DNA of 60,681 bases from a virus. The stretch is from positions 1-60,681 of the IMG/VR virus record IMGVR_UViG_3300037343_000006, one strand, 5' to 3'. Below the pieces are notes generated by a model. It saw only the letters and a list, made by a program, of their open reading frames with translations. It made no database searches and was not told where the DNA came from. The translations under genes and the position numbers were made by a program. Position 1 is the stretch's first letter. Every line of letters starts with the position of its first letter. Below are positions 4,667-58,200 of the stretch, in pieces.

Positions 4667-7600
4667 ATGGCGCGGTATAATCTCACGCTTAAGGATGGCT
4701 CTGCGTTTGAAGTAGAGGCACCAGCAGGCGCTTCCCAAGCGGAAATCCTACGCCGCGCCAATCAACAGATGTCCGTCCGCGGGATGAACGAGCGTAGGGA
4801 CGCACGCACTGCAGAGCGCCAAACGCAACTTGCCGAATTGGACGCAATGCGGCCCCCGCCGCGGGAGCCAGAAACTGGCTTCCTCGGGGATTTAGTCGGG
4901 GGTTTCGGCGCGGGCGTCGTCAATATCGGCGAGACTGCAGCCCTCGGTGCCGCTACGCTGCTCGACGAGGAGCAAGAACTCGCAGCGCGTGAGCGCATCC
5001 AGAACGCGGCCAGCGCCATTCGGCCCAGTATGGGCGACGAGGAAGACCTCGCCTACAAAATCGGCTCTACCTTCGGCTCGATCGCCGGGTTTATCGGTGC
5101 AGCTGCCACCGTTACGTATGGTGCGGGCGCTCTCGGTCTTGGCGTTGCCGGTGCAGGTATCGCGGGCCTTGTCGGCGCGGGTACCCTTGGTGTTGGTGCA
5201 GCTACTGGTGAGGCAAGTGAGCGTGCTCGCGCCGCCGGAGCCACCCAAGAAGAACGCAACCGCGCAATTATGCAAGCCATCCCAGTCGGTGCTTCCGAAG
5301 TGCTTCCGCTTCGCCGTATTCTGGGCAAGCTAACCGGCGACCTCGGCGAAGAATTGGTTCAGACTTTCCGCCAGCGCGTAGTCAGCGCGTTGCGCACTGG
5401 TGGCGAAGAAGCCGCACAGGAAGCCGCAGCGGGCATCGCACAGAACCTTATCGAGCGTGGCTACAACATCGACCAAGCCGTCCTCGAGGGTGCGGGCGAA
5501 GCAGCTGCCTTGGGCGGCGGTGCCGGTGCGACCATTCAGGTACTCGTGGACTTGTTTGCTGGCCGCCGTGCGCGCGGTGCCACTCCACCACCAGAAGGTC
5601 CAGCGCAAGGTGAGTTGTTCCCCGGCGCTGATCTTGGCCAAGCGCCCACCCGTGTCATGGGTGACCAGCGTGAGATGTTCCCCGAGGAAGACTTGGGTAT
5701 GGCACCCGAGCGTCCGGACGAGCGCCAAGGCGAGTTGTTTAGCGCGCAGGATCAACAATCGGCAGCGTTTGCCCGCACCGCGCGCCGCGCGGATGAAGAG
5801 CGCGCCCGCCTTATGGAGCGCCCCATATCTGAGTTCGAGTCGGCAGGTGACCCGTTCTTAGAGCGTACCAAAGCCGAAAGAGATGCAGCTCGTGCGGGGA
5901 TAGCTGGGCTACAAAGGCCCGAGCAGCCGGAGCCTGAACAGCGGGATATGATCCGCGAACTCGAAGCGGCGACAATCCCCGAAGAAGAACAGCGTGCTCA
6001 GGCAGCCGCCCGTGAGCGTGAAGGACTTCGCGCCGCTGGACGTGGTGACGAAGCTGCATTTGAGCAGCCTGACTTGTTTGCACTGCAGCAAGAACAAGAG
6101 CGCCGTCGGCTTGGACCTGAAGAGCTGCGTCGGCCCGACCAGTTCATGGATGTGCCGGAAGCGGCGGAGACAGTTACGCCCGAGCAGCCCGATGCCATGG
6201 GTGATCTCGTGGATATGGCGGACCAGCGCCAGCGCACAGCGGCAGAAGATGCCGACATCGCAGACCAGCTCGCCGCTATCGACGCTGAAGAAGGCGCGCA
6301 GCAGCAACAAGCCGCGGCACTGCGCGCTGAGTCAGACATTGAGACCATCACCGGCCAGCAGGAAACGCAGCGGCAGCAAGCCACCGAGCAAGGTCGGCGT
6401 AGCATCCTACAAGATGTTATTAAGAAGACCCCGAGCCGCAACTACAACCGCGTGTCTCGGATGTACGAGGATGCGCTCACAAAGGCGGGTTATCAGGGCG
6501 ATAAAGCCAAGCCGACTGCGGCGGAAATCCAAACTATTCAGCGTGCTGTTAACGTACAGCGGGCCGAGCGCCCTGAGCCAGTGTCGCCTGTCGCAGAGCC
6601 GATTAAGCTGCCGCCTGAAGCTACGCAGCTGCAGGAGATGGAGTCGCGCATCCCTGAGCGCGCAGCGCAGCGCGAGCCAGAACAGCTTGGTATGCCCGGT
6701 ATCCGTCGCCGGATTCAAGAAGCACCCGCGCGTGAGGGCATGGCCCCAGAGGCGCAAGCCGCACCAGAAACTGTAACCGACGAGATGCTTGACCAGATGG
6801 GTATCGCTCCGCGGTCGCCCATTCGGCAGCGCCTACGTGGTAAGGACTTAAATGACCCTACAACGCGCGAAATCCTTACTTCTTTTGCGAATCAGCCACG
6901 TACTTCTCAGACTGCAGAGTTGGGTATTAGCCGCCGCCTTGAGGGGGTTCCCGAAGAGCAACCCGACCTCTTCGCACCTAGCGGAAGACGTAGCGCAGCT
7001 GCGCAGCCAGCTCCGCAACAAACACCTGCAGGCCCCGCAGCTCAGCCAGCACCTAGTGCGCAGCAGAACGCCCCGCAACAACTTGAACTTTTCCCAGAGA
7101 CCGCACAAGGGGTTACAGATGGCACTGCAGCACCTAACCAGCAAAGAGATCGAGCAAGCGTTCGCGGTGGTGGACGCGGCGTGGCAGGACCCGGAGGGGT
7201 CGGAGGTACGGGTGGAGGTGCCAGAACACCTACAGCACCTGAGCCCAGAGGACTGGGAGCACGTATCGCGAGCGCTGTACCTGCTGCAGCACCAAAAGCT
7301 GCAGAGCGTAGTACACTAGGGGAAGGCGGTACGCGTCGTAATGTTATGCCGACGCTGCCGCGGCGTCCGATAATCGACCCAAAAACTCTAAAGCCAATCC
7401 GCGAAGAGCGTGTCGGCCCGACGTCTCGTGCTCTTGCACCGCGCGAAAAGATTTCAGCAAAATCTGAACCCAAGGTCAGCGGTGACCAAGTCACCAAGCA
7501 GCTCGCGGACTGGTACGAGGCTAACGTCTCGGCACCGGCGAAGCGGTTTGTCAAAGAGCTCGGGATGTCGATCACAAGTCCGTTAACGATCGCCGACAAG

Positions 7601-10600
7601 GCCGCTATCTTAGCGCAGCTCAACACGAAGTCGACGAAGGAAAACAAGACCACCATCGGTGCGCTTAAGAAGTATCTCGGCAACTACCCTGACCCGGCCC
7701 TCGGCCTGCAGGATGCAATCGACGACGTAGTGGCGCAGAAGCCTAACTTCCGCCGTACAGAAGACATGACCGACGGAGAGTCGGAGTTTTTTGGGGCGAC
7801 CAAGGACGGTAAGACCCCCGCACGGGGTAAGAACGCAGCCCAGTACGTGCTTGATTGGGCCAGCAAGAATATGTCTGAAGCCACCAAACGGTGGACCGCT
7901 GGTAAAATCGTCGAGTCGAAGAACGCCATGCAGGCTATAGAGGCGTTTGAGTCTACTGACCTTGTCGCTACGCGGCGCGAACTAGAGAAAGCCTTCGAGG
8001 GTGGGTTCGACCCTACCAAGGATGCAGACAACAAGCGCCTCGCCGACGTGCTGGAGAAGCTGGGACTCGATGAGTCCGACCCGATGGTCCGCGGCATGCT
8101 CTATAAGGGGGGCATGTTTAACATGGCGGTGCCCCCGTCGCGCCACCCGCTGTCACAAGTCACTGTAGCGCTACTCCGTAAGGGCGATCTCGCAGGAGCG
8201 CTCCGCTCCGTCGCTGCATCCAGTGCCGATCCCGAAGTCGCTGCCGTGGCAGAGAAGCTAGCCAAGGTCGTTGGTGATACCAAAGTCGAGGTGGTTAAGT
8301 CAATCGCCCCCGGCGTACTTGGGCGGTTTACTGCGGCAACTAATACGATCTCGTTGGCCGAACCCACAAACAAATTGAAGCTCGATGGTGGCCTTAACAC
8401 CCACGTGCTCCTGCACGAGATGACGCACGCTGCCACGGCGTTCACACTTGTAAACAAGGGCCACCCGCTGACCCGCAAGCTGAAGAAAATCTTCGAAGAA
8501 ACCAAAGAGTTTATGCCCACTGCGTATGGCTCTACCAGTATCGAAGAGTTCGTGGCCGAAGCATTTTCAAACCCCGAGTTCCAGTCCATGCTGGCGGGGC
8601 TCAAGATTAAGGGCGACCCACTCACCCCGTTCGCAAAGATCAAAGCTGCGATCTCCAACTTCCTACGCTCGCTTGTCGGTAAACCTGTTAAGCCGGTTCA
8701 ATCGGCGTTGGAGCAAACCACCAGCATCATCGACAACATCCTCGCCCCCGCACCGGGTAACATCGGCACCGGTGAGTTCTTCATGCTGTCGCCAGTAGCT
8801 GCAGGTAAGCGCATCGCGGAAATGCTTGGGGACATACAAAAGCAGTCCAAGCCAGTGACTAAGGAGTTTGCGCAGAAATTTGCAGGCAATACCCGCGAGT
8901 TCTTGCGGGGCACCGCCACTGACAAAGCGAAGCGCGGCATGCTCGGCTTCCTACCATCGCAGGCGGTGGCAGACGTTGCTGAACGCAGCGGTATCAAAGG
9001 TGCCATGGACCTGCACAAGCTCATGGAAGAGCAGCGTGGCGCTATCAACAAGTCAGACCAAGCCGTTGAAGGCGTCCTAAAGTCTGTCGCCAACTGGGTG
9101 AAGTCACATCAAAACCAAGTCGATGCGTTGAACCGTGTGGTCTATAAGAGCACCATCGAGCAGGTTGACCCCTCGAAGCCGATATCAGCGTACGCCAACG
9201 ACCCAGAAAAAGCTAAGGCGTGGCGTGACATGCGCAACGACTGGCGCGCGCTGTCCTCTACGGGTGGCGACAAGGTGTACGCCCAGATGCGCGACACGTA
9301 CAAAAAACAGTACGAGAAGATGCGCGACGTAATCTACGGCAAGATCGACGAGACGATCACCGATGAAGCTGCGCGTAAGAAGCTGAAGAACGAGGTGTAC
9401 GCACGCCTGTTTGAGAGCGGCACCATCGAGCCTTACTTCCCACTGACACGTGCGGGTAACTACTGGCTGTCCTATGTTGCCGAGGGTGAGTTCACCGTCG
9501 AAGCATTTGAGACCATGGCAGAGCGGGACCGTGCGATAACTGACCTAAAGGCTGATACATCAGTTAAGGACGTCGAGAAGTTCGTCAACATAAACAACGC
9601 AAGCTACGCCAAAGCACCGCCGTCGTCGTTCGTGGGTCAGACACTGCAAACCCTTCGGGCAAATAGGGTGCCCGATGACGTGCAAGCTGAGATCATGCGG
9701 CTGTTCATCGAGACGCTGCCAGAGACGTCGTTTGCTAAATCGCTCCAGCGGCGTAAGGGCACCGCAGGGTACCAAGAAGATGCGATCTTCGCGCTCAAGA
9801 CCAAAGCCTTCGATCTTGGTCGGCAGGTGGAGCGCCTGCGGTACAGCGCCAAACTCCGCACCCTGCAGGATAGCATCAATGAGGATAACCGGCCCAACCT
9901 GACAGAAGAAAACAAGTACATCGTAGACGAGCTAAACCTGCGCGCCGACTTCGCACGTAACCCTCCGGGGGATGGGCTGGCCCAAGCTGCTAACCGAGCT
10001 GCGTTTGTCTTCACGATCGGCTTCAACGCTTCGTCCGCTGTGGTCAACCTCTCGCAGCTGCCTATGTTCGTCTACATGATGTTTGCTGGCAAGTATGGAT
10101 ACGGCGCTGCAGGCCGCGCCATCATGGATGCGTCTAAGCTCGTTACCAGCAGTGGGTTCAATCGTAAGAGCGACATGGTCGCCCCCTACGGCAATGAGAA
10201 GAACATCAAGGTCCGCGCGATGCCAAGCATCGACAACTACTTTGAGCTCGATGCCAACGGCGACTACGTCGTGCGCAAGGACTTGGACTTAGAGCCTGAA
10301 GTCATCGCTAAGGTTGAAGAGCTAAAGCCGCTTGTTGCGATGATGGCGGCTCGTGGCCAGCTAAACCGGTCGCTGTTTGCCGATAACCTTGGCATCGACA
10401 GCTCTGGCCGGGAGCGCGGTATTATCGACATGGCTACCGCGGCTTCGGCGTTCATGTTCCACAACGTAGAAGTCTTTAACCGGCAGGTCACAGCCATCTC
10501 GGCGTATCAGCTTAAGCTCGCGCGCCTTAAGAAAGCAGAGCCAACCCTGTCCACTACAGAGATGCAGACAAAGGCCGCAGAGCAGGCATTGGAGGATGCG

Positions 10601-11635
10601 CAAAGGACTAACGGCGGGTCGGTGCTTGAGACTGCGCCACGGCTCAGCCAGCAGGGGATCGGGCGCGTCGCGCTTATGTATAAGGCCTACGGCATCCAGA
10701 TGTACTACTCCATGTTTAAGACCGTCCGCGACGGTATGGAGGCGCACTTCGCCGGGGATAAAGACGCGCGCAATGAAGCACTTCGGCAGTTCGCTGGGGT
10801 GACTGGGGCGTCGTTCCTACTGGCAGGAGTCGTCGGTATGCCACTGGCGCGGGAACTCTTGCAGCTTATGAACCTGCTGTTCTTTGACGAAGAAGAAGAC
10901 ACCGCGGAGACACAGCTGCGCAAAGCGATCGGCGAAGGGTTCTACAAAGGCCCCGCAACTGCGCTTCTCGGCGTCGACTTGTCCAGCCGTATCGGTCTGT
11001 CGGGCCTCATCCTGCAGGCTAACCGGTTTAACCACGATGCCTCGCTCGAAGAGGACGTGTTCCACTATCTTGGGGGCCCTGCGTGGAGTATCATTTCTGG
11101 GTTTAATCGGGGTCGCCAAGACATTATGAACGGTGAGATCGAGCGTGGTGTTGAGGCCATGATCCCTGCCGGTATCCGCAACATGTATCAGGCTGCGTTC
11201 CGCTTCCCCAACGACGAAGGCATCTTGACCCGCCGCGGCGACCCGATCATGGACGACCTGTCCTTCGGCCAACTTGCTGCGAAGTTTGTCGGCTTCGCCC
11301 CTGCCGAGTACACCCGTACGCAGGAGATGAACCAGCAGACCAAGAACGTCGACCGGTCAGTAAACAGCGCACGGACTACGATACTGCGTCGTTACTATGT
11401 GGCTACCCGCATGGGTGACTCCGACGAGCGGCGTGCCATGATGCAGCGCATCAAGGACTTTAACCGTAGGCATCCCACGGCCCGTATCGACGCTGACTCC
11501 CTGCGTCGGTCTATGCGGCAGCACATGGAGACATCAGCTACGATGTATAACGGCATCTCGATCAGCCCGAACATGCGCCGTGCGTTGGATGAGAGCCGTG
11601 ACGAGTGGAACCAAGGGTTCCAACTCTTTGATTAA
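4667..11635 (+). CDS. Giant polyvalent ejection protein: clamp-type motifs, HExxH metallopeptidase, PLxRFG/LPD38-like C-terminus
   Basis: 2,322 aa, the largest gene contained wholly in the window. Residues about 128-180 are a Gly/Ala-rich hydrophobic segment with glycine-zipper spacing, suited to membrane insertion. Residues 300-820 are charged, Gln-rich and probably disordered, and carry six Qx(D/E)(L/M)F motifs at 314, 334, 354, 467, 765 and 805; the first three are spaced exactly 20 residues. A zincin signature LLHEMTHA puts H1250-E1251-H1254 as catalytic residues, with E1293/E1294/E1298 as candidate third ligand. The remaining ~1,000 residues are helical with hydrophobic stretches and resemble the large polyvalent protein domains (PLxRFG/LPD38 type) I know from phages. 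Inference: injected with the DNA, helping it cross the envelope and acting in the cell early. A minus-strand terminator hairpin begins at its stop. Confidence 0.8.
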   Translation: MARYNLTLKDGSAFEVEAPAGASQAEILRRANQQMSVRGMNERRDARTAERQTQLAELDAMRPPPREPETGFLGDLVGGFGAGVVNIGETAALGAATLLDEEQELAARERIQNAASAIRPSMGDEEDLAYKIGSTFGSIAGFIGAAATVTYGAGALGLGVAGAGIAGLVGAGTLGVGAATGEASERARAAGATQEERNRAIMQAIPVGASEVLPLRRILGKLTGDLGEELVQTFRQRVVSALRTGGEEAAQEAAAGIAQNLIERGYNIDQAVLEGAGEAAALGGGAGATIQVLVDLFAGRRARGATPPPEGPAQGELFPGADLGQAPTRVMGDQREMFPEEDLGMAPERPDERQGELFSAQDQQSAAFARTARRADEERARLMERPISEFESAGDPFLERTKAERDAARAGIAGLQRPEQPEPEQRDMIRELEAATIPEEEQRAQAAAREREGLRAAGRGDEAAFEQPDLFALQQEQERRRLGPEELRRPDQFMDVPEAAETVTPEQPDAMGDLVDMADQRQRTAAEDADIADQLAAIDAEEGAQQQQAAALRAESDIETITGQQETQRQQATEQGRRSILQDVIKKTPSRNYNRVSRMYEDALTKAGYQGDKAKPTAAEIQTIQRAVNVQRAERPEPVSPVAEPIKLPPEATQLQEMESRIPERAAQREPEQLGMPGIRRRIQEAPAREGMAPEAQAAPETVTDEMLDQMGIAPRSPIRQRLRGKDLNDPTTREILTSFANQPRTSQTAELGISRRLEGVPEEQPDLFAPSGRRSAAAQPAPQQTPAGPAAQPAPSAQQNAPQQLELFPETAQGVTDGTAAPNQQRDRASVRGGGRGVAGPGGVGGTGGGARTPTAPEPRGLGARIASAVPAAAPKAAERSTLGEGGTRRNVMPTLPRRPIIDPKTLKPIREERVGPTSRALAPREKISAKSEPKVSGDQVTKQLADWYEANVSAPAKRFVKELGMSITSPLTIADKAAILAQLNTKSTKENKTTIGALKKYLGNYPDPALGLQDAIDDVVAQKPNFRRTEDMTDGESEFFGATKDGKTPARGKNAAQYVLDWASKNMSEATKRWTAGKIVESKNAMQAIEAFESTDLVATRRELEKAFEGGFDPTKDADNKRLADVLEKLGLDESDPMVRGMLYKGGMFNMAVPPSRHPLSQVTVALLRKGDLAGALRSVAASSADPEVAAVAEKLAKVVGDTKVEVVKSIAPGVLGRFTAATNTISLAEPTNKLKLDGGLNTHVLLHEMTHAATAFTLVNKGHPLTRKLKKIFEETKEFMPTAYGSTSIEEFVAEAFSNPEFQSMLAGLKIKGDPLTPFAKIKAAISNFLRSLVGKPVKPVQSALEQTTSIIDNILAPAPGNIGTGEFFMLSPVAAGKRIAEMLGDIQKQSKPVTKEFAQKFAGNTREFLRGTATDKAKRGMLGFLPSQAVADVAERSGIKGAMDLHKLMEEQRGAINKSDQAVEGVLKSVANWVKSHQNQVDALNRVVYKSTIEQVDPSKPISAYANDPEKAKAWRDMRNDWRALSSTGGDKVYAQMRDTYKKQYEKMRDVIYGKIDETITDEAARKKLKNEVYARLFESGTIEPYFPLTRAGNYWLSYVAEGEFTVEAFETMAERDRAITDLKADTSVKDVEKFVNINNASYAKAPPSSFVGQTLQTLRANRVPDDVQAEIMRLFIETLPETSFAKSLQRRKGTAGYQEDAIFALKTKAFDLGRQVERLRYSAKLRTLQDSINEDNRPNLTEENKYIVDELNLRADFARNPPGDGLAQAANRAAFVFTIGFNASSAVVNLSQLPMFVYMMFAGKYGYGAAGRAIMDASKLVTSSGFNRKSDMVAPYGNEKNIKVRAMPSIDNYFELDANGDYVVRKDLDLEPEVIAKVEELKPLVAMMAARGQLNRSLFADNLGIDSSGRERGIIDMATAASAFMFHNVEVFNRQVTAISAYQLKLARLKKAEPTLSTTEMQTKAAEQALEDAQRTNGGSVLETAPRLSQQGIGRVALMYKAYGIQMYYSMFKTVRDGMEAHFAGDKDARNEALRQFAGVTGASFLLAGVVGMPLARELLQLMNLLFFDEEEDTAETQLRKAIGEGFYKGPATALLGVDLSSRIGLSGLILQANRFNHDASLEEDVFHYLGGPAWSIISGFNRGRQDIMNGEIERGVEAMIPAGIRNMYQAAFRFPNDEGILTRRGDPIMDDLSFGQLAAKFVGFAPAEYTRTQEMNQQTKNVDRSVNSARTTILRRYYVATRMGDSDERRAMMQRIKDFNRRHPTARIDADSLRRSMRQHMETSATMYNGISISPNMRRALDESRDEWNQGFQLFD

Positions 11636-26848: not shown

Positions 26849-28078
26849 TCACATATCCCTCGATTCAATGTGCACGGTCTTGCCCACGTCAGGGCTGGCC
26901 CGCTCGTTGTCCAACACAGTCCACAGCACAGGGTGGTGCCACTCACCCCAGCCACCGAACAGATAGCCGTCGGTCAGCACGATCACTGCCTGCGCCTTGA
27001 TCTGTTTGTCTGCGATGTATTGTGGCACACAGCGCACGTCGGTGCCGCCGCCGCCCTTGGGCTTGGTAGACTGCACGATGTTGTCCGCTTCGGCCCCTTC
27101 ATACCGCTCGTCACCTGCCACGCGCGTGTCCCAATACAGGATGCGAATAGCCTCGGGGTGCACCGTGTCCGCCACCGATTTGATTTCGGCGAGGAAGGCA
27201 CCTAGTTCACGCGCACCGATGCTGCCTGACGTGTCGATAGCCACCACGATCTCACCGATACTCTCGCTGATACCACTCGGCAGGTAGATACCCGCGCCGA
27301 TGTAACGACGGTTGGGCCTGCGCCATGTCGAGTAGTCATTGCCCTGACAAGTTGTTTGCACGAAGTCACGCAGCACCTCGCGCCAGTCCACTTGTGGCTG
27401 CAACAGTTCAACCATGTCGCGGTCAGCACCACTGCCCAGCTTGCCAGCAGCCAGCGCACCTTGCCGCACAGCCTCGTCGATCTCACGCGCCAAGTCCCGC
27501 TGTTCTTCTGCGGTCATGTCGGACGCATCATCCCAGCCGTGCTCATCGAAGCCAGTTCCCGTGTTAGTGCCGCCACTAACACCACTGCCCTGCCCCTGCC
27601 CCTGCCCCTGCGGGGGCGGGTTCTTCTTGAGGTCGTTGAACACCTGCGCGCTGTCCCACCCACGATACTTGTCGTCGTAGCACCCGATGCTCAGCTTGCC
27701 GTCCATGGTGGCGAACAGGTCAGCGTTGTCGTCGACCAGCTTACCGTTGATGACGTAGTCACAGGCCATGTTGGCCAGCTGCGCGTTCTCCTTATAGAGA
27801 TGTTGCCACGTGGTGAGGTGGCGATAGAGTTTGTGATACACCTCGTGCAGCACAAGGAAGCGCAGCTGTCTGTCGTTGAGGTCGGCGATGAAGTCAGCGC
27901 CATACACCTCGTCCTTGCCGTTGGTATATGCAGTCGGACAACGCCACGCGTCATGCTCGACACGTCGTGCTCCGATCATCAGCACACCTACCAGCGCCCT
28001 GTATTTGAGGTTAGCCATGATGTCGATCACAGCCTTCTGCACCCTCTGGTCTGGCGTTAAGTTACCCATCATCAGCAT
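26849..28078 (-). CDS. Metallopeptidase/VWA-like protein (DUF2201 type), partner of MoxR
   Basis: 409 aa. An HExxH zinc motif lies early (H78-E79-V-Y-H82 in LHEVYHKLYRH), in the DUF2201 N-terminal metallopeptidase-like domain. A Pro/Gln/Gly-rich linker at about 153-180 follows, then a VWA-like domain with a MIDAS DTSGS at 282-286 and a GGGGTD motif. This two-domain form is the usual companion of MoxR AAA ATPases, like CobT with CobS or ViaA with RavA. MoxR is encoded two genes upstream. The pair could form an ATP-driven remodelling or metal-insertion machine acting on a host or phage target. Start is at 28078; an in-frame ATG at 28072 is possible. Confidence 0.88.
   Translation of the reverse strand: MLMMGNLTPDQRVQKAVIDIMANLKYRALVGVLMIGARRVEHDAWRCPTAYTNGKDEVYGADFIADLNDRQLRFLVLHEVYHKLYRHLTTWQHLYKENAQLANMACDYVINGKLVDDNADLFATMDGKLSIGCYDDKYRGWDSAQVFNDLKKNPPPQGQGQGQGSGVSGGTNTGTGFDEHGWDDASDMTAEEQRDLAREIDEAVRQGALAAGKLGSGADRDMVELLQPQVDWREVLRDFVQTTCQGNDYSTWRRPNRRYIGAGIYLPSGISESIGEIVVAIDTSGSIGARELGAFLAEIKSVADTVHPEAIRILYWDTRVAGDERYEGAEADNIVQSTKPKGGGGTDVRCVPQYIADKQIKAQAVIVLTDGYLFGGWGEWHHPVLWTVLDNERASPDVGKTVHIESRDM
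27563..27580 (-). promoter_or_regulatory. In-frame GTTAGTG/CACTAAC repeat inside the VWA gene
   Basis: 18 bp, 4-nt loop, codon-aligned as Val-Ser-Gly-Gly-Thr-Asn in the flexible linker between the metallopeptidase-like and VWA domains, where extra residues are easily tolerated. Confidence 0.65.
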
Positions 28079-28079
28079 G

Positions 28080-28400
28080 TTATTGTGCTCCCATATCTGA
28101 CCCGCCGAACAAGCGGGTCCACCAGCGTTTTAATGTCGACGTGGTAGTATCACTAACCACGTGTTTAGTTGCGTCCTCACTTGTTAGTGGCACACTAACA
28201 GTCTCGTATCTTTTCGGCTGCTTGTGCAGGCCCGTGACGTAGATGCGCTGCTGCACCGCGCCTCTCGAGCGGTTAAGTGCTTTGGCAATATCCCACGTGT
28301 CAAACCCTGCATGATACATGGTAAGCAATGTGTCAGTGTGCTCGTCCGTCCATGCTGTGCCGGTGTTACTCGGCGTCTTGCGCTTGTATCTCTTAGCCAT
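28080..28400 (-). CDS. SANT/Myb-like helix-turn-helix protein
   Basis: 106 aa from the ATG at 28400 (GAGGAG upstream). After a basic start, residues 14-58 read as a three-helix DNA-binding unit (AWTDEHTDTLLTMYHAGFDTWDIAKALNRSRGAVQQRIYVTGL), the type found in GcrA-like and Myb/SANT phage regulators. It lies between the MoxR and VWA genes. A GTTAGTG/CACTAAC repeat is embedded in frame downstream of the HTH. Likely an early transcription regulator. Confidence 0.8.
   Translation of the reverse strand: MAKRYKRKTPSNTGTAWTDEHTDTLLTMYHAGFDTWDIAKALNRSRGAVQQRIYVTGLHKQPKRYETVSVPLTSEDATKHVVSDTTTSTLKRWWTRLFGGSDMGAQ
28183..28199 (-). promoter_or_regulatory. In-frame GTTAGTG/CACTAAC repeat inside the SANT-like gene
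   Basis: 17 bp with a 3-nt loop. It starts on a codon boundary (Val-Ser-Val-Pro-Leu-Thr), like the 18-bp in-gene copies, but the odd length shifts the reading of its right arm. A second, diverged half-site (GTTAGTGATACTAC on minus) lies 27 bp away at 28144-28157. Confidence 0.65.
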
Positions 28401-28411
28401 TGTTTCTCTCC

Positions 28412-29503
28412 TCACTTCTTATCTGCTGCAAACAGGTAGTTGTTCTGCATGGCCCACGCCGTGAACTTCTTGTTGGTCATCACCATAGCCTGCTTGGAAT
28501 ACTTGGGAGCACGCACACCATTGGCGAACATACCCTGCGCTTCCTTGTCGAGCCGCTGCATATATTCCATCCACGCATCGAGCCAGTCACGCTCCAATGA
28601 TGCAAGTGTCCGATACACCACCATACAAATAGCTGCGGCAGAGGCAGGCACTAGTGCATTGAGCGGGTCTTTCTTGATGCTCTCCAGCGAGGGCAGCTGG
28701 TCAGCCAGACTGACAAAGGCCATCAGGTCCATCGCCGCACGGTCACCGATCGTGCCCATGAGCGCCGCCGTTGTAGTCTGCTGGTCGATCAGGTGGCGTT
28801 CCTTGAGAACATCCGAGGCAGCTTCGAGCGAGCGAGGTGTGACGAACGCTGCACGCTGTGCCTTGGGGTGGTAAATATATGGGTTCTCCTCGGGGTCTTT
28901 GATGTCCTCGAAGCCAAGGAACAGCTGCGGGTTGTCCTTGCACCAGCCCAACAGGGTGTGGTCCACGCCGTTGTTGATGCCCCACTCGATCCACTCCATG
29001 TTGCTCGGCTTGCGCGCAGTCACCACGGTGATGCGGTTACGTGCATGAGGTGGCAACAAGTCACCGACACCCTCGGCACCGAGGTTAGTGGTGGCGAACA
29101 CAACGCTGTCAGGATGCAGCTCGTAGCTACCGATCTTGCGCTCCAGCATGAGACGTAACAGTGCGTTCTTCACGGCGGGATTAGCCTTGCCATACTCGTC
29201 GATCATCAGGATAATTGGCCCGCCATGGTGCGCACCCAACTCCTCGTTGGTGGCATAGGTCACGTATCCTTTCCCGCTCGTCTTCATTATCTCAGGCAGC
29301 GTGATGTCACCCAAGTCCTTGGTGGTGCAGTCGAAGTAACACGCGGTGTGTTGTGGTAGATCGTTGGCGAGCGTGCGCAGCAGGCTGCTCTTGCCTGTGC
29401 CCATGTGGCCTTGCACCAGTGTGGTGCGCTTGTGACCCGTCGCCTTGATGAGTGCTGCGATCTGGTCGAGGTTGATGTGATACATCTGTTGTGCGGTAGT
29501 CAT
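28412..29503 (-). CDS. MoxR/CobS-like AAA+ ATPase
   Basis: 363 aa. Walker A GHMGTGKSS with K38, Walker B ILMIDE with D102-E103, sensor 1 FATTN with N140, and the MoxR-type substrate-loop region between them. The C-terminal 150 residues are helical. MoxR ATPases work as hexamers with VWA partners to remodel proteins or insert cofactors; the VWA partner is encoded two genes downstream and a DUF3150-like protein one gene upstream. Its ATG is preceded by AAGGAG and, 20 nt upstream, by a perfect dispersed hairpin. Confidence 0.9.
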   Translation of the reverse strand: MTTAQQMYHINLDQIAALIKATGHKRTTLVQGHMGTGKSSLLRTLANDLPQHTACYFDCTTKDLGDITLPEIMKTSGKGYVTYATNEELGAHHGGPIILMIDEYGKANPAVKNALLRLMLERKIGSYELHPDSVVFATTNLGAEGVGDLLPPHARNRITVVTARKPSNMEWIEWGINNGVDHTLLGWCKDNPQLFLGFEDIKDPEENPYIYHPKAQRAAFVTPRSLEAASDVLKERHLIDQQTTTAALMGTIGDRAAMDLMAFVSLADQLPSLESIKKDPLNALVPASAAAICMVVYRTLASLERDWLDAWMEYMQRLDKEAQGMFANGVRAPKYSKQAMVMTNKKFTAWAMQNNYLFAADKK

Positions 29504-29523
29504 GTGTAGTTCTCCTTGGTTGT

Positions 29524-29541
29524 GTTAGTGGCGGCACTAAC
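29524..29541 (-). promoter_or_regulatory. GTTAGTG/CACTAAC hairpin before the MoxR gene
   Basis: Perfect arms, 4-nt loop GCGG on plus. It fills the 73-bp gap between the DUF3150-like and MoxR genes and ends 20 nt before the MoxR ATG, directly before the SD. Confidence 0.75.
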
Positions 29542-29576
29542 GCCGCCTGTTTTGTTATGGTTCACTAGCCGACATC

Positions 29577-30458
29577 TTAGATGTCGAGCGAGGGCAGGGC
29601 CTTGATCGCTTTGTCCACGTTGCGCTTAGTCTCGCGGCGCAGCCACTCGTCCTCACGCAGTGCATCGGGTGTCACACCACGCATGGCTTCTTCGAGGTTG
29701 TCTGCCATGGCAGCCATCTGCATGTCGTTGGCCACGTTACACACACGCATCAGGTCGATCATCTCGGCCACGTTCTCCACGAGTGTGTCACGAAACACCT
29801 TCTTCTGTTCGTGGTCGGCGTAGTCGAGCCGCTCGCTCATGCGGGACAGCGCGTCGTATGTCCGCTTCCACACGTCCTTCATGGCGACACCCAACTGTGT
29901 GGTGTAGTAGTTCTGGTAGTGCGCGCGCAGTTCCTCGGCTGCGTCGTTGGCAATGTCGATGCGGAAGTCACCTGCATCGGGCAGCGGGATGTAAGTCAGC
30001 CTGAAGCTAAACTTGTTATGCAGGCTCTCGGTCGTGGGGTAGTCGGCGCGGATGAACAGGTCGCCCAGCTTTGTCTGTGCCTGCATGATCTCCCAGTCGT
30101 ATGCGTTCAGGAACAGCGCCACGAGCCGCCCGTATTCTGCCTGCAACGCGGTCATCTGCGCGTGATACTTGAAATACTGCGCTGTAGGCAGCAGGCGCAG
30201 CCCCGTGTCGGACCACGGCATGGTCATGGAATAGTGTGCGTTTCGCAGGTTGGCTGTGAATTTCTGCACTGCGCTCAATTCGGCGCAGTCGCCCAGCAGC
30301 TTCTTGTTCACGTTAGCTACGCCGTCAGCCGCGTAGTTCTGCGCTGTGATGTCCTTGGATGCGCGCTTGTCCAGCTTGCGTCCAGTCCACGTTGAGATGC
30401 TGAGTTCGACCAGCATGGATGACGACGAGATCGTCGGGGTATTAAAATCATTAGGCAT
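29577..30458 (-). CDS. Helical protein upstream of MoxR (DUF3150-like)
   Basis: 293 aa, SD GGAGAG before the ATG at 30458. Largely helical, with an SSSSMLVELSISTWTGRKLDK N-terminal block and a long central helical region, ending in a charged helix. Position, length and the Trp-Thr-Gly-Arg-Lys motif fit DUF3150 proteins, which I know as neighbours of MoxR/VWA genes in phages. The assignment is from memory of such clusters, so moderate. It is the first gene after the promoter at 30526-30566. Confidence 0.7.
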   Translation of the reverse strand: MPNDFNTPTISSSSMLVELSISTWTGRKLDKRASKDITAQNYAADGVANVNKKLLGDCAELSAVQKFTANLRNAHYSMTMPWSDTGLRLLPTAQYFKYHAQMTALQAEYGRLVALFLNAYDWEIMQAQTKLGDLFIRADYPTTESLHNKFSFRLTYIPLPDAGDFRIDIANDAAEELRAHYQNYYTTQLGVAMKDVWKRTYDALSRMSERLDYADHEQKKVFRDTLVENVAEMIDLMRVCNVANDMQMAAMADNLEEAMRGVTPDALREDEWLRRETKRNVDKAIKALPSLDI

Positions 30459-32288: not shown

Positions 32289-32311
32289 AAAGATGGCGTA
32301 ACGGCAGGCAC

Positions 32312-32344
32312 AAAAAAAGGCCCGCCCGCCGAAGCGGATGGGCC
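32312..32344 (-). terminator. Leftward rho-independent terminator, distal copy
   Basis: On the minus strand an 11-bp GC-rich stem (one mismatch) with a TTCG tetraloop is followed by seven T residues. It is the second terminator reached from the 172-aa/24-aa cassette. Confidence 0.85.
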
Positions 32345-32386
32345 AGTGTCACGGGGTCATAAGTAGGAAGGCGTAACGGCAGGCAC

Positions 32387-32419
32387 AAAAAAAGGCCCGC
32401 CCGCCGAAGCGGATGGGCC
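32387..32419 (-). terminator. Leftward rho-independent terminator, proximal copy
   Basis: Identical to the copy 75 bp away. It begins 4 bp beyond the stop of the 24-aa gene, so it ends the cassette transcript. Confidence 0.9.
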
Positions 32420-32423
32420 AGTG

Positions 32424-46513: not shown

Positions 46514-48430
46514 ATGGCTAACGACAAAGATTTTCGTATCAAGAACGGCTTGCAGCTGGGCGGCAGCTTGGTGGAAGCCGTTGGAACGATCACAGGCACA
46601 ACTCTTGACCTGACTTCTGGTAACGTGTTCAGCTACACACCTACGGCGGAAACTACGTTTGTGTTTAGCAACCCCCCTACGACGGGTACTGCCCTCGGAT
46701 TTACGCTTGAACTCAATGGTGAATTTATTGATGGCGGCTATGACCTAGCTAATGCAGAGCCACCTGCTTATGGGTACTTCTCTGTATCTGCTCAAGACAC
46801 AAATCCAAACGGAGTGTTCTTCAAACCAGACGGCACAAAGATGTACGTTATTGGGTCTACTGGAGATGATGTAAACGAATATGATCTAAGCACAGCTTGG
46901 GATGTTTCTACTGCATCTTACCTTCAGAACTTCAGTGTTTCCGCTCAAGAAAGCCAGCCACAAGGTATCTTCTTTAAACCCGATGGCACAAAGATGTATG
47001 TTATTGGTCGTCTTGGAGACAATGTTAATGAGTATGATCTGAGTACAGCTTGGGATGTAACGTCGGCCAGTTACTTACAGAACTTCAGTGTCGCTGCCCA
47101 AGAACTAGAACCAACCGGTATCTTCTTCAAACCTGATGGCACTAAGATGTACGTTATTGGGTTCAGTGGAGATGATGTTAATGAGTATGACCTAAGCACA
47201 GCTTGGGATGTAACTTCAGCTTCTTACCTTCAGAACTTCAGTGTTGCTACTCAAGAAACAACTCCAACCGGTATCTTCTTCAAACCCGATGGCACAAAGA
47301 TGTACGTTATTGGGTCTACTGGAGATGATGTAAACGAATATGATCTAAGCACAGCTTGGGATGTTTCTACTGCATCTTACCTTCAGAACTTCAGTGTTTC
47401 CGCTCAAGAAAGCCAGCCACAAGGTATCTTCTTTAAACCCGATGGCACAAGGATGTATGTTATTGGGGCTTCTGGAGCTGCAGTCTTTTCCTACACCCTA
47501 AGCACAGCTTGGGACCTAAGCGCTGCCGGCACTGAAGGGTACTTCAGTGTTGCTGCTCAAGAAACAACTCCCAGCGGCATTTTCTTCAAACCAGACGGCA
47601 CTAAGATGTACGTTATTGGGTTCAGTGGAGATGATGTTAATGAGTATGACCTAAGCACGGCTTGGAATGTTTCTACTGCATCTTACCTTCAGAACTTCAG
47701 TGTTGCTGCTCAAGAAACAGCTCCAGCCGGCATCTTCTTCAAACCTGATGGCACTAAGATGTATGTTCTTGGGCAAGCTGGAGACGATGTTAATGAGTAT
47801 GACCTAAGCACAGCTTGGGATGTATCTTCAGCTAGTTACCTTCAGAACTTCAGTGTTGCTGCTCAAGAAACAACTCCGACCGGTATCTTCTTCAAGCCCG
47901 ATGGCACTAAGATGTATGTTATTGGGTCTACTGGGGATTATGTTAATGAGTACGACCTAAGCACAGCTTGGGATGTTTCTTCAGCTAGTTACCTTCAGAA
48001 CTTCAGTGTTGCTACTCAAGAAACAACTCCAACCGGTATCTTCTTCAAACCCGATGGCACAAAGATGTACGTTATTGGGCAAGCTGGAGACGATGTTAAT
48101 GAGTATGACCTAAGCACAGCTTGGGATGTTTCTTCAGCTAGTTACCTTCAGAACTTCAGTGTTGCTGCTCAAGAAACAACTCCACAAAGCATTTTCTTCA
48201 AGCCCGATGGCACTAAGATGTATGTTATTGGGTTCAGTGGAAATGCAGTATGGCAATACTCAACAGGCTTTGTCGGAGATGCGACCTTCACATACCCTGC
48301 GTCTGTCGAGTGGCCAGCAGGTACACCCCCTACCTCCCCTGCTGACGGTGAGACAGACCTACTGACATTCCTCACGCAAGATGGTGGCACAACTTACTAC
48401 GGACGCTTGATAGGCGACAACTTCAGCTAA
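46514..48430 (+). CDS. Tail protein with ten 51-aa propeller-like repeats
   Basis: 638 aa. After a 90-residue N-terminal domain, ten tandem copies of a 51-residue repeat follow (FSVxxQExxPxGIFFKPDGTKMYVIG, then NEYDLSTAWDV and SYLQN), with copies 5 and 10 diverged in the second half; then a short C-terminal domain. GIFFKPDGTKMYV is a four-stranded blade-like pattern, so a beta-propeller is likely. Such a protein may bind the host surface. The DNA is visibly more AT-rich than neighbouring genes, and copies 1-2 and 4-5 share 160 identical bases, signs of recent acquisition and recombination. Confidence 0.85.
   Translation: MANDKDFRIKNGLQLGGSLVEAVGTITGTTLDLTSGNVFSYTPTAETTFVFSNPPTTGTALGFTLELNGEFIDGGYDLANAEPPAYGYFSVSAQDTNPNGVFFKPDGTKMYVIGSTGDDVNEYDLSTAWDVSTASYLQNFSVSAQESQPQGIFFKPDGTKMYVIGRLGDNVNEYDLSTAWDVTSASYLQNFSVAAQELEPTGIFFKPDGTKMYVIGFSGDDVNEYDLSTAWDVTSASYLQNFSVATQETTPTGIFFKPDGTKMYVIGSTGDDVNEYDLSTAWDVSTASYLQNFSVSAQESQPQGIFFKPDGTRMYVIGASGAAVFSYTLSTAWDLSAAGTEGYFSVAAQETTPSGIFFKPDGTKMYVIGFSGDDVNEYDLSTAWNVSTASYLQNFSVAAQETAPAGIFFKPDGTKMYVLGQAGDDVNEYDLSTAWDVSSASYLQNFSVAAQETTPTGIFFKPDGTKMYVIGSTGDYVNEYDLSTAWDVSSASYLQNFSVATQETTPTGIFFKPDGTKMYVIGQAGDDVNEYDLSTAWDVSSASYLQNFSVAAQETTPQSIFFKPDGTKMYVIGFSGNAVWQYSTGFVGDATFTYPASVEWPAGTPPTSPADGETDLLTFLTQDGGTTYYGRLIGDNFS
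46832..46991 (+). repeat. 160-bp identical block, copy 1
   Basis: Identical to 47291-47450 (offset 459 bp, exactly three repeat units), within the propeller-like tail gene. Indicates recent recombination or gene conversion. Confidence 0.9.
47291..47450 (+). repeat. 160-bp identical block, copy 2
   Basis: Partner of 46832-46991; the next base pair differs (AAAGATG against AAGGATG). Confidence 0.9.
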
Positions 48431-54781: not shown

Positions 54782-55255
54782 ATGGCGACCGTTACAGACA
54801 GCAAAAAGCAGTTTTTGTCTGCTCCCGAGATCATTATGCGCTTTGCGCAGGAGCTAGACGAATCCGGGTACCCCTTGCAGAATGTGCTCGCAGCCATTGC
54901 GGAAGAACTTAACCTACCAAACACCGATCAAGTGCAGATCGGCAACACCGTGTTCATTGGGCATACCGGTAAGGGTAAGCACAAGAACGTCATGGAGGGT
55001 CGCGCTCTCAACGTAGATACCGCGAATAATTTTCTGCGGGCCGGGCTCAAGTACCTAGCCTATCTGCAAAACAAGGGCATCCGGTACTACCGTACCGACT
55101 TTAAGACTGACCAGTACGTATCGGCGTTTAAGTTCTGGTATAAGAAGGTCGAAGGTTCGGACACCGAGATTGACGTCGTGCAGCTGGATACCGGTATGTA
55201 CCGCGCTTACATTTACATTGGGGACGAGTCCCTCAAAGAGTTCTGGAGAGCCTAA
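54782..55255 (+). CDS. Hypothetical virion-region protein, 157 aa
   Basis: ATG at 54782 (AGGAG upstream). Compact alpha/beta: EIIMRFAQELDESGYPLQNVLAAIAEEL, TVFIGHTGKGKHKNVMEGRALN, RAGLKYLAYLQNKGIRYYRTDFKTDQYVSAFKFWYKK. The order resembles acetyltransferase-like or internal proteins placed before ejection genes (as T7 gp13), but no catalytic motif is certain. Its stop overlaps the giant gene start (TAATG). Confidence 0.75.
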   Translation: MATVTDSKKQFLSAPEIIMRFAQELDESGYPLQNVLAAIAEELNLPNTDQVQIGNTVFIGHTGKGKHKNVMEGRALNVDTANNFLRAGLKYLAYLQNKGIRYYRTDFKTDQYVSAFKFWYKKVEGSDTEIDVVQLDTGMYRAYIYIGDESLKEFWRA

Positions 55256-58200
55256 TGCCACCTCTTTTTATCGCCGCAGCTGTTGGGGCCGCCGCAGGAG
55301 CTGGCGCTGTCGCGCTTGGAGCTGGCGCTGTCGCTGCTACCGTTGTGGGGGTAGGCGCAGGTGTTATCGCCCATAAGTCAGGTGCGGCTGACTGGGTGTT
55401 TGATAAGATTGTGAAGCCGGTGGGAAACGCGGTTAAGAACGTATTAACGTCCGATATTGGCCAGTTTGTCCTTAAAGCTGCGGCGACGCTGTCCGGCAAC
55501 GCTTGGGCTATACCTCTAATCGACGGGGCCGCGACATTAGCAAACGGTGGTGATTTCGGCGACGCGCTGAAGTCTGCGGCTATCTCGTACGTCGGCGGCA
55601 AAGTGGGTCAGCTTGGCGGAGAACTGGCATCGCAGGCATTGGTTAATGCTGGGGCGTCAGAGTTTGCTACGCAGGTTATTAGTTCCGCGGCTGGCTCTGG
55701 CTCAGGCAGTGCGTCGGTCGCACTCATTATGGGGCAAGACCCGGTAAAGGCGTTTATTCAAGGCGGTTTATCTGGCGGGCTTAGCGCTGCAGCCGGATGG
55801 TTGGAGACCAACACTGAGGGTGCGTTTTCGAAACTACCCGATGCGGCTCGCAACGTAATCACCTCGGGGCTTTCCGCCGCGCTTACTGGTAAAGAAATTA
55901 CTTCAGACCTCGTCTGGAACGCCCTGCTCACAAGCGAGGGTGTAACAAAGACCATAAACAACTTCCTCGGGGAGAACGTCGGGCTTAAAGATAGCCTTAC
56001 AGAGAATCAGATCAGCGCGCTTACACTCGGCATCCAGCGTACTACCGCCACGGCGTTTAGCGGCGGTGACGTACCTGCGGCTATTCTCAACCAGCTTAGC
56101 CAGTACGGCGAAAAAGAGTTTGGCGAGTGGCTGGATAACAGCAAGTTCGGCGATACGGTAAACAATTCCCTAGACAAAATAACTGGGGATTATCAACGTA
56201 CCGAAGCCCAAGCCAAAAAGATGGATGGGGTTGTACAACAACACTCTAGTGCAGTCGCTAACTACGACAGCACGGTTCAGCAGATCAATGCAGGTGTGAC
56301 CGAGCAAGAGCGCCTGCGCACTGTTTATGATCGGGCGCTGCAGAACTTCCAAGCCAACGAGAACCAGACAAACGCCGATGCGTTGACTACCGCGGTTAGA
56401 AATTTAAACAATTACGCAGCTGATTTCGACACGCGCTACACAAACACGCTCATACCCAATCTCAACCGCTACGAGCAGCAGGCCGCAGACTTAGCGGCGC
56501 AGTTTGATGTAGAGACGAAAAACTATAATACGCTAGTCACAGACTTGTCGGTTTCCGCGGACCGCGTCGCCGAAGACCTTAAGCCCGTATATTCTGAGCT
56601 TGATCGGCAGTTTGTTAAGTTTATGGACCCGAACTTTAATGAGTCTGAGTACCGGCAGATCGCTGGGCTCGACGCTGACGACGATGCCTATCTGCACTGG
56701 CTGAGTGTGGGTAAGGAAGAAGGCCTGCCAAGCAACATGGCGGCGTACAAAGAAGAGTACGGGTCGTATCGGCAAAACATTATTAACTCCGTGCTGGATC
56801 GCGCGGGCCTGTCGCTCACAGATATGACTCAATTCGAGCGTGCGGCGTTTCTTGCGGATATCGACGAGCGGTATCCAACACTGCAAGACCTGCGCAACGC
56901 CCCAACACAGACGCTAGCCGACGAACTCCTCACCAACCAATCTATATCCGACCGGGCAACTGCGAAAAAGTACACCGCCGGATCGACACAGATCACACCA
57001 GAGATTAACGATGCATTGGCTCGCGCCGGGCTCGAACGGGGTATGGTCGGCGAGTACCTAACTCAAGACGATGTTCGCGCGTTGACTACGCCTCCAGTGC
57101 AGACGCGCGAAGAGGTTGTTCGCCCCACGGACGTCACCGATACAGATATCGCCAATGGTTCGGCGTCGTTATTCGTGAACAACGATGGCCTGCTTGAGTG
57201 GGGCAACATAGATATGAACATTCCATACTGGGATTCAAACCTCAAAAGGCTCGTGCGGAGAACCCCCCATATCGTAGGTACTGAATTACACGGCGGGTAC
57301 GGCATAGTAGACGCTTTCACTGGGGAACGCGTTGATAACGTGCTTCGGTTTTACATCACTAAGAACTTAGGAGACTTACGGGAGGACAACCCCAGCCTGT
57401 TTATTCAGGCTGTAGGGGGCCTCAGTGAAGCTGCCGGTGCGATTATTGACACGCAGGTTGGGCAGGCTGTGTCTGAGTTTGCTCGGAACGTTGTAAAATA
57501 TACTCAGACTCAGATGTCGCCTACTGAGATAGACACGTCTGATATGTCTCCTGAAGCCGCCGCGATTGCTGAACATCTTGTGAATAAAAATAACGCGTAC
57601 AAAGAGAATATACTCAACGGTGCTGGGTTAGCGGCACAAATGGGTGGCGACATACTGAGCGGGTTTAACGGCCTTTTTATATACGCCAACATCGACCCAA
57701 AAACCACGCCGTTTGCAGGGTGGGCAGACGACCTCATCACCGTGTCTACCCAGTTAAAAACTCCAGAGTGGCAAGAGGCGTTCAACCGCGCAGACATGCG
57801 CCGTAGGGGCATTGACCCAGCTACTGGGCAGCCCATCGAGCGCGAGTTTAGCCGCCTCAACGCACTGACCGATTTTGCGGGGGCGATTGAAGAAGCGCCT
57901 GTGCAGTTTGTTGTTGAGGCTATTGGGGTTGAAATAGGTCAGGAAGTTATTTCGTGGTTTCTCGGTGGCGCGGTCACAAAGGTAGCGAAACTAAGCGCGC
58001 GGGGGATGGGGAGAGAGATAGGCGAGCAAATGGCTCGGCGGATAACCGCGAGTAATGTCTTTGCTTTAGATATCGCCGAGTCTGCGGGGGGCGCTGCCGG
58101 TAGCGCGTATGACGAGTCGCTAAGCGCTGCGCTTAACTCTGGTATGAGCCAGAGTGAAGCAGAAACCTACGCCGCTGACATAGCTAAAACCGCTGGGATT

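Follow-up and report, generated by a model that had tools for sequence, protein, structure and literature searches.

The disordered linker of a 2322-residue phage protein would, in the reading favoured here, be a docking strip on which the host beta sliding clamp (DnaN) is bound multivalently, the protein itself being a polyvalent virion or ejection protein; we put the probability of this reading at about 0.6. The protein is encoded in IMG/VR virus record IMGVR_UViG_3300037343_000006, whose 60,681 bases were analysed throughout and are called the window below. Turnover of the linker motifs in distant relatives follows sliding-clamp rules, which suggests that these viruses may seize the host replication machinery on entry.

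A polyvalent-type protein at the end of the late module

The structural genes in the window include a terminase, a portal and a gpT-like capsid gene; its replication genes encode a family-A DNA polymerase (PolA), an SNF2-type helicase, a PD-(D/E)XK nuclease and a DUF927 primase/helicase. The genes upstream of the 2322-residue ORF match genes of phage DSL-LC04 that adjoin its 'DNA transfer protein'. The features of the ORF are as follows (window coordinates, strand, description).

4667..11635, +, polyvalent-type protein of 2322 aa with the motif array; last gene of the late module
4667..5566, +, N-terminal domain, aa 1-300, delimited by invariant alignment columns and AlphaFold2; conserved GEASERARAAGAT
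5564..5752, +, disordered segment with motifs 1-3, aa 300-362; pLDDT about 30-40
5606..5620, +, motif 1, QGELF, aa 314; in homologues L004, L005, L007, L009 and L010, gone in L003, L008 and L019
5666..5680, +, motif 2, QREMF, aa 334; distribution in homologues as for motif 1
5726..5740, +, motif 3, QGELF, aa 354; orthologous site QLNLF/QLSLF in relatives
6065..6079, +, motif 4, QPDLF, aa 467; conserved context FEQPDLFA
6899..7360, +, disordered segment with motifs 5-6, aa 745-898; pLDDT about 30
6959..6973, +, motif 5, QPDLF, aa 765; QADLPLF (hexamer-like) in L007
7079..7093, +, motif 6, QLELF, aa 805; motif match
8309..8650, +, predicted zincin-like metallopeptidase domain; HEMTH at aa 1250-1254 (nt 8414-8428), E1298
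9011..9394, +, LPD39 (Large polyvalent protein associated domain 39), aa 1449-1576; Pfam PF18858, E 2.4e-13, above cut-off
10385..11599, +, C-terminal region common to PLxRFG/'DarB-like' phage proteins; phrog_10089, E 8e-66, and tblastn

The N-terminal domain opens with a small beta/helical part, continues as a hydrophobic stretch rich in Gly and Ala (aa ~135-180), and gave no match in a Pfam search. For residues 1151-2322, a profile search recovers solved metallopeptidase chains with the zincin fold (E 5e-4); H1250, E1251, H1254 and E1298 are invariant in the alignments of relatives, and the region has a weak SprT-like Pfam match besides. This zincin-like domain is a possible self-processing peptidase. 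Foldseek searches with both AlphaFold models gave nothing significant, the models being of low confidence and too weak for fold searches. LPD39 is found in 9 of 12 relatives. The phrog_10089 ('DarB-like antirestriction') match covers the last 400 residues, and the C-terminal third has tblastn matches in 33 phage records with annotations such as PLxRFG, DarB-like and DNA methylase. Because Pfam detects neither a DNA methylase nor an SNF2 domain in the 2322 residues, the protein is not a DarB, with which it has the C-terminal region alone in common.

Proteins of such make-up and zincin relation have been named 'polyvalent proteins' and inferred to be packaged and injected (Iyer et al., 2017; PMC5512222). 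The protein combines disparate domains with an LPD/effector component (LPD39, the zincin match and the PLxRFG C-terminus) and has a late/virion gene position at the end of the late module. From this polyvalent architecture, the late-module position and the PLxRFG/DarB-like C-terminus, the protein is likely to be ejected; it would be packaged in the virion and delivered to the cytoplasm.

Several other regions of the window deserve description. Genes for a DUF2201 metallopeptidase/VWA protein, an AAA ATPase and a DUF3150 protein are consecutive at 26849-30458 (-), and this cluster includes a GcrA-like gene (28080-28415) that scores exactly at the Pfam cut-off and hints at an alphaproteobacterial host. 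ATPase and VWA genes likewise lie close together in Planktothrix phage Pag-Yong1. Two 75/76-nt tandem duplications, perfect or near-perfect (32295-32450 and 33113-33268), lie ahead of the terminase gene in a stretch that is largely non-coding, and within a tail-fibre-like ORF (46514-48430) a 153-nt unit is repeated nine to ten times (46788-48245, +). The gene for a second large late protein (55255-60681 and 2-1060, +) overruns both record ends and carries a 207-nt tandem repeat with a coiled-coil-like unit (60007-60681, 98% matches), inside which the record breaks. Since base-to-base joining of the ends is not in frame, the record either breaks within this repeat or has collapsed at it. In many relatives, the tail of this second protein (nt 968-982) is conserved as SIFATPQQ..[LMK][FY].SPY followed by GGQVEDENDMLLRILGE, a block reminiscent of a tag for packaging or docking. 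QAALF near its C-terminus was rejected as a clamp motif: relatives have QAQKF, QASRY, QEAFY and others in its place, inside the conserved SIFATPQQ..F.SPY block, which is not clamp grammar.

Six clamp-type motifs in the linker

The first-pass annotation had placed six sliding-clamp-type motifs at residues 314, 334, 354, 467, 765 and 805, and all six are found there. In 5000 shuffles of residues 300-900, Q..[LM]F arises 0.085 times on average and at most twice, against the six observed. The exact 20-residue repeat claimed for motifs 1-3 is likewise real and corresponds to a 60-nt unit in three tandem copies, with 15-nt cores at 5610, 5670 and 5730 and an identity of 73-93%. As one repeated unit, motifs 1-3 are not independent draws, so that a count of six overstates the surprise, and the evidence against chance therefore comes mainly from relatives. 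A seventh match, QLPMF at aa 1797 (nt 10055), was left uncounted; it lies in a hydrophobic C-terminal region, is conserved in most relatives as SQ[LVI]P[LM]FV and was judged structural.

The proposal that all six motifs lie in a probably disordered region applies to five of them, with a pLDDT of about 30-40 in an AlphaFold2 model of residues 1-1100 (13 sequences). Site 467 is borderline: it sits at the edge of a helix, residues 463-468 having a pLDDT below 50 and a helix starting from residue 470.

Enrichment and residue grammar in relatives

A first scan of IMG/VR viral contigs with the 2322-residue protein gave 19 loci. A profile scan with the N-terminal part gave 466 related stretches, 80 of which were kept, and removal of near-duplicates left 63 proteins. 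The linkers of these 63 relatives (about 50,000 residues) contain 138 Q..[LM]F pentamers where 4.7 are expected from shuffles; such counts are inflated by the relatedness of the sequences, whereas the contrast with 20 control patterns in the same linkers, which occur at 0-2.8 times expectation, is not. The control patterns comprised changed first residues, other spacings, reversal, altered positions 4/5 and hexamer forms.

The residue preferences are sharp. With position 1 freed, Q is present in 135 of 161 matches; with position 4 freed, L (113) and M (22) together fill 135 of 142; and with position 5 freed, F is found in 127 of 203, or in 93 of 109 after Q[LPG][DE]L. Position 3 is D or E in 127 of the 138 pentamers (92%). 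At position 2, where clamp motifs are tolerant but favour Leu or another aliphatic residue, P (47), G (37), L (29) and R (12 of 138) are the residues recorded, and in the window Leu stands there in QLELF alone. The surroundings are acidic, E being enriched 4x at -1 and 3.2x at +3. In known clamp motifs, Gln at position 1 is important, position 4 admits only Leu or Met and position 5 Phe or Leu, Asp is slightly preferred at position 3, and the flanks are acidic (PMC11139829).

The pentamer is present in 51 of the 63 family members, often at new positions, and absent in the other 12. Clustering by flanking sequence yields 25 unrelated contexts, where 4.7 matches would be expected (Poisson P about 5e-11), even under a rule that puts 112 of the 145 motifs in a single cluster. 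Hexamers of the form Q..[LM].[FLI] show no general enrichment in the linkers of relatives; the specific form Q.[DESN]LP[LF] occurs three times there against 0.28 expected.

Other proteins on the same contigs stay at background, with 42 motif matches against 40.8 expected. The notion that clamp motifs are a general PLxRFG trait was rejected, as the proteins of 14 isolated phages contain 0-2 matches for 0.14-0.75 expected; the large polyvalent protein of Pag-Yong1 has no motifs. The array thus belongs to the linkers of this clade and not to PLxRFG proteins or Gln-rich sequence generally, and since the PLxRFG proteins of isolated phages do without the motifs, these are dispensable for the function of the common C-terminal part. 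Taken with these negative controls, the residue grammar and the turnover in 63 relatives lend strong support to the clamp-type assignment made in the first pass.

Searches outside IMG/VR viral contigs were less productive: querying genome contigs with the 2322-residue protein and phages with its N-terminal part found no relative, and a plasmid query found C-terminal PLxRFG matches alone. FEQPDLFA was also tried on cellular genomes as a means of naming the host and was rejected, its matches being mostly bacterial epoxide hydrolases and a coincidence.

Turnover of individual sites

Conservation in homologues, on which the first-pass annotation had made its claim depend, gives a mixed picture that on the whole favours the claim. 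Site 467 is kept in all eight close homologues, each of which has at least two motifs; at other sites there are losses. Sites 1-3 are missing as a block in three of the eight (L003, L008 and L019), site 6 is missing in several relatives, and site 4 has become QPDLL in three distant ones (L012, L015 and L074). Site 3 reads QLNLF or QLSLF in five of the eight close homologues, compared with QGELF in the window, so that both free positions differ while Q, L and F are constant. Elsewhere, other relatives have QLDLF, QMDLF, QLTLF, QVDMF and QADMF, and the Q, L and F codons of the motifs show synonymous drift among relatives.

QADMF is the motif of Pol III alpha, and the site-5 variant QADLPLF of L007 is similar in form to QLSLPL, the six-residue motif of Hda. 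QLNLF is the motif of Pol V, and QLSLF is the PolC consensus (PMC11139829; PMC3919608). Conservation around site 467 extends beyond the pentamer (FEQPDLFA), and therefore another or additional role is possible for this site.

Proposed mechanism and alternative explanations

On the strength of the motif grammar, physical binding of DnaN by the motifs is quite probable. The protein would enter the cell together with the phage DNA, and its Q-x-[DE]-[LM]-F peptides would fill the protein-binding pockets of the clamp. Each peptide might bind weakly to moderately, with avidity supplied by up to six peptides per chain and by the dimeric clamp. Pol III and other clamp clients would be displaced and the host replisome held, while the phage would replicate with its own family-A polymerase. 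Growth of E. coli is reported to be inhibited by an expressed cytosolic QLDLF peptide (PMC11139829). Docking of the Gln is less favourable in MutL when Pro occupies position 2 (PMC11139829); as position 2 is mostly Pro or Gly here, single motifs such as QPDLF may be weak and the array may act by avidity.

Neither the window nor any of 12 related contigs has a beta-clamp gene, PolA is present in the window and in 11 of the 12, and clamp motifs are absent from the PolA, primase, SNF2 and nuclease proteins of the window. With a motif-less polymerase of its own and no phage clamp, the phage's replication would be harmed less than the host's by filled clamp pockets. The first-pass proposal that the host replisome is captured or blocked is plausible: net inhibition of host replication, by blocking or holding, is the purpose that we prefer, tentatively and at somewhat less than even odds. 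Slightly more doubtful is the full scenario, in which widespread, uncultured podovirus-like phages would use a virion-delivered multivalent clamp trap to seize the replisome before phage gene expression, possibly also aiming the zinc peptidase.

The same motif evidence would fit a clamp that is recruited and not blocked, with the ejected protein tethering the incoming genome or gap-filling/ligation enzymes for immediate replication or repair, and polyvalent proteins have been described as a means of giving replication an early start (Iyer et al., 2017; PMC5512222). However, the family-A polymerase, primase-helicase and nuclease that the phage itself encodes all lack clamp motifs, and dependence on the host clamp is not evident; we regard recruitment as rather unlikely.

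A further possibility is that Q-x-[DE]-[LM]-F addresses another partner, either in the phage (a structural or assembly factor) or in the host (a protein other than the clamp), and that the resemblance to clamp motifs is accidental. Short motifs are ambiguous, as the coincidental FEQPDLFA in bacterial epoxide hydrolases illustrates, and the preference for P or G at position 2 is unlike the best clamp ligands. But the known clamp grammar covers the fixed Q1, L/M4 and F5, the acidic residues at position 3 and in the flanks, and the swaps to QLNLF, QLSLF, QLDLF and QADMF at homologous or new sites, which makes an unrelated partner unlikely, a shade more so than recruitment. We know of no other bacterial ligand with the Q1, L/M4, F5 and acidic-3 grammar.

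The zincin signature downstream of the linker (HEMTH, aa 1250), with its invariant H/E/H/E residues, raises the idea that the motifs aim the peptidase at clamp-bound proteins for cutting, or that self-cleavage frees the motif strip; self-processing by such zincins has been proposed (Iyer et al., 2017; PMC5512222). Zincins are, however, also present in polyvalent proteins that have no described clamp motifs, so that the pairing may be incidental, and Foldseek on the low-confidence model found nothing, leaving this idea improbable. Functionless low-complexity duplication, to which the 60-nt tandem repeat of motifs 1-3 might point, is very hard to reconcile with motifs in 51 of 63 relatives, in unrelated contexts, with the clamp positions alone fixed and the codons for Q, L and F drifting synonymously.

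If the docking-strip reading is true, an array of up to six evolving clamp motifs delivered by the virion would let host takeover begin at time zero by a new route. The linkers of giant polyvalent proteins, otherwise anonymous, would gain a function, and an antibacterial target would gain natural multivalent ligands. To find the host targets of injected proteins, one simple reading rule is to look for motif turnover in their disordered linkers.

Comparison with known systems

The polyvalent proteins of Iyer et al. (2017) are like the window protein in their giant, late, multidomain form, LPD domain, zincin-like peptidase and presumed injection; their description (PMC5512222) does not use the words clamp or disordered and describes no linker motif array. 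In Bcep22-like and Lastavirus podoviruses, the proteins annotated PLxRFG or 'DarB-like antirestriction' have the C-terminal region (phrog_10089) and the late-module position in common with it, but the window protein is without a methylase or SNF2 domain, and the proteins of the 14 isolates are without the motif array. JC1 gp69, which has a DarB-like annotation and is likened to the window protein by that annotation, was detected in virions by mass spectrometry (PMC9144972).

Gp168 of phage Twort is a phage protein directed against DnaN (PMC11139829), and its likeness to the window protein would be one of target. It fills the DNA channel of the clamp and not the peptide pocket; this sole phage clamp inhibitor met in the open-access literature thus acts on another clamp surface. 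A phage virion protein with an array of clamp motifs was not found in that literature.

To our knowledge, known clamp ligands have one or two motifs each, whereas the window protein has up to six predicted motifs per chain, is a phage late protein and often has P, G or R at position 2. With the bacterial clamp-binding motifs (CBMs; QL[S/D]LF, QxxLF) of Pol III alpha, PolC, Pol V, Pol IV, Hda and IS transposases, its motifs share Q1, L/M4, F5 and an acidic or small residue at position 3. Acidic flanks and location in disordered tails are further points of likeness to CBMs, and the turnover of motifs among IS transposases resembles that in the window family (PMC11139829; PMC4549789).
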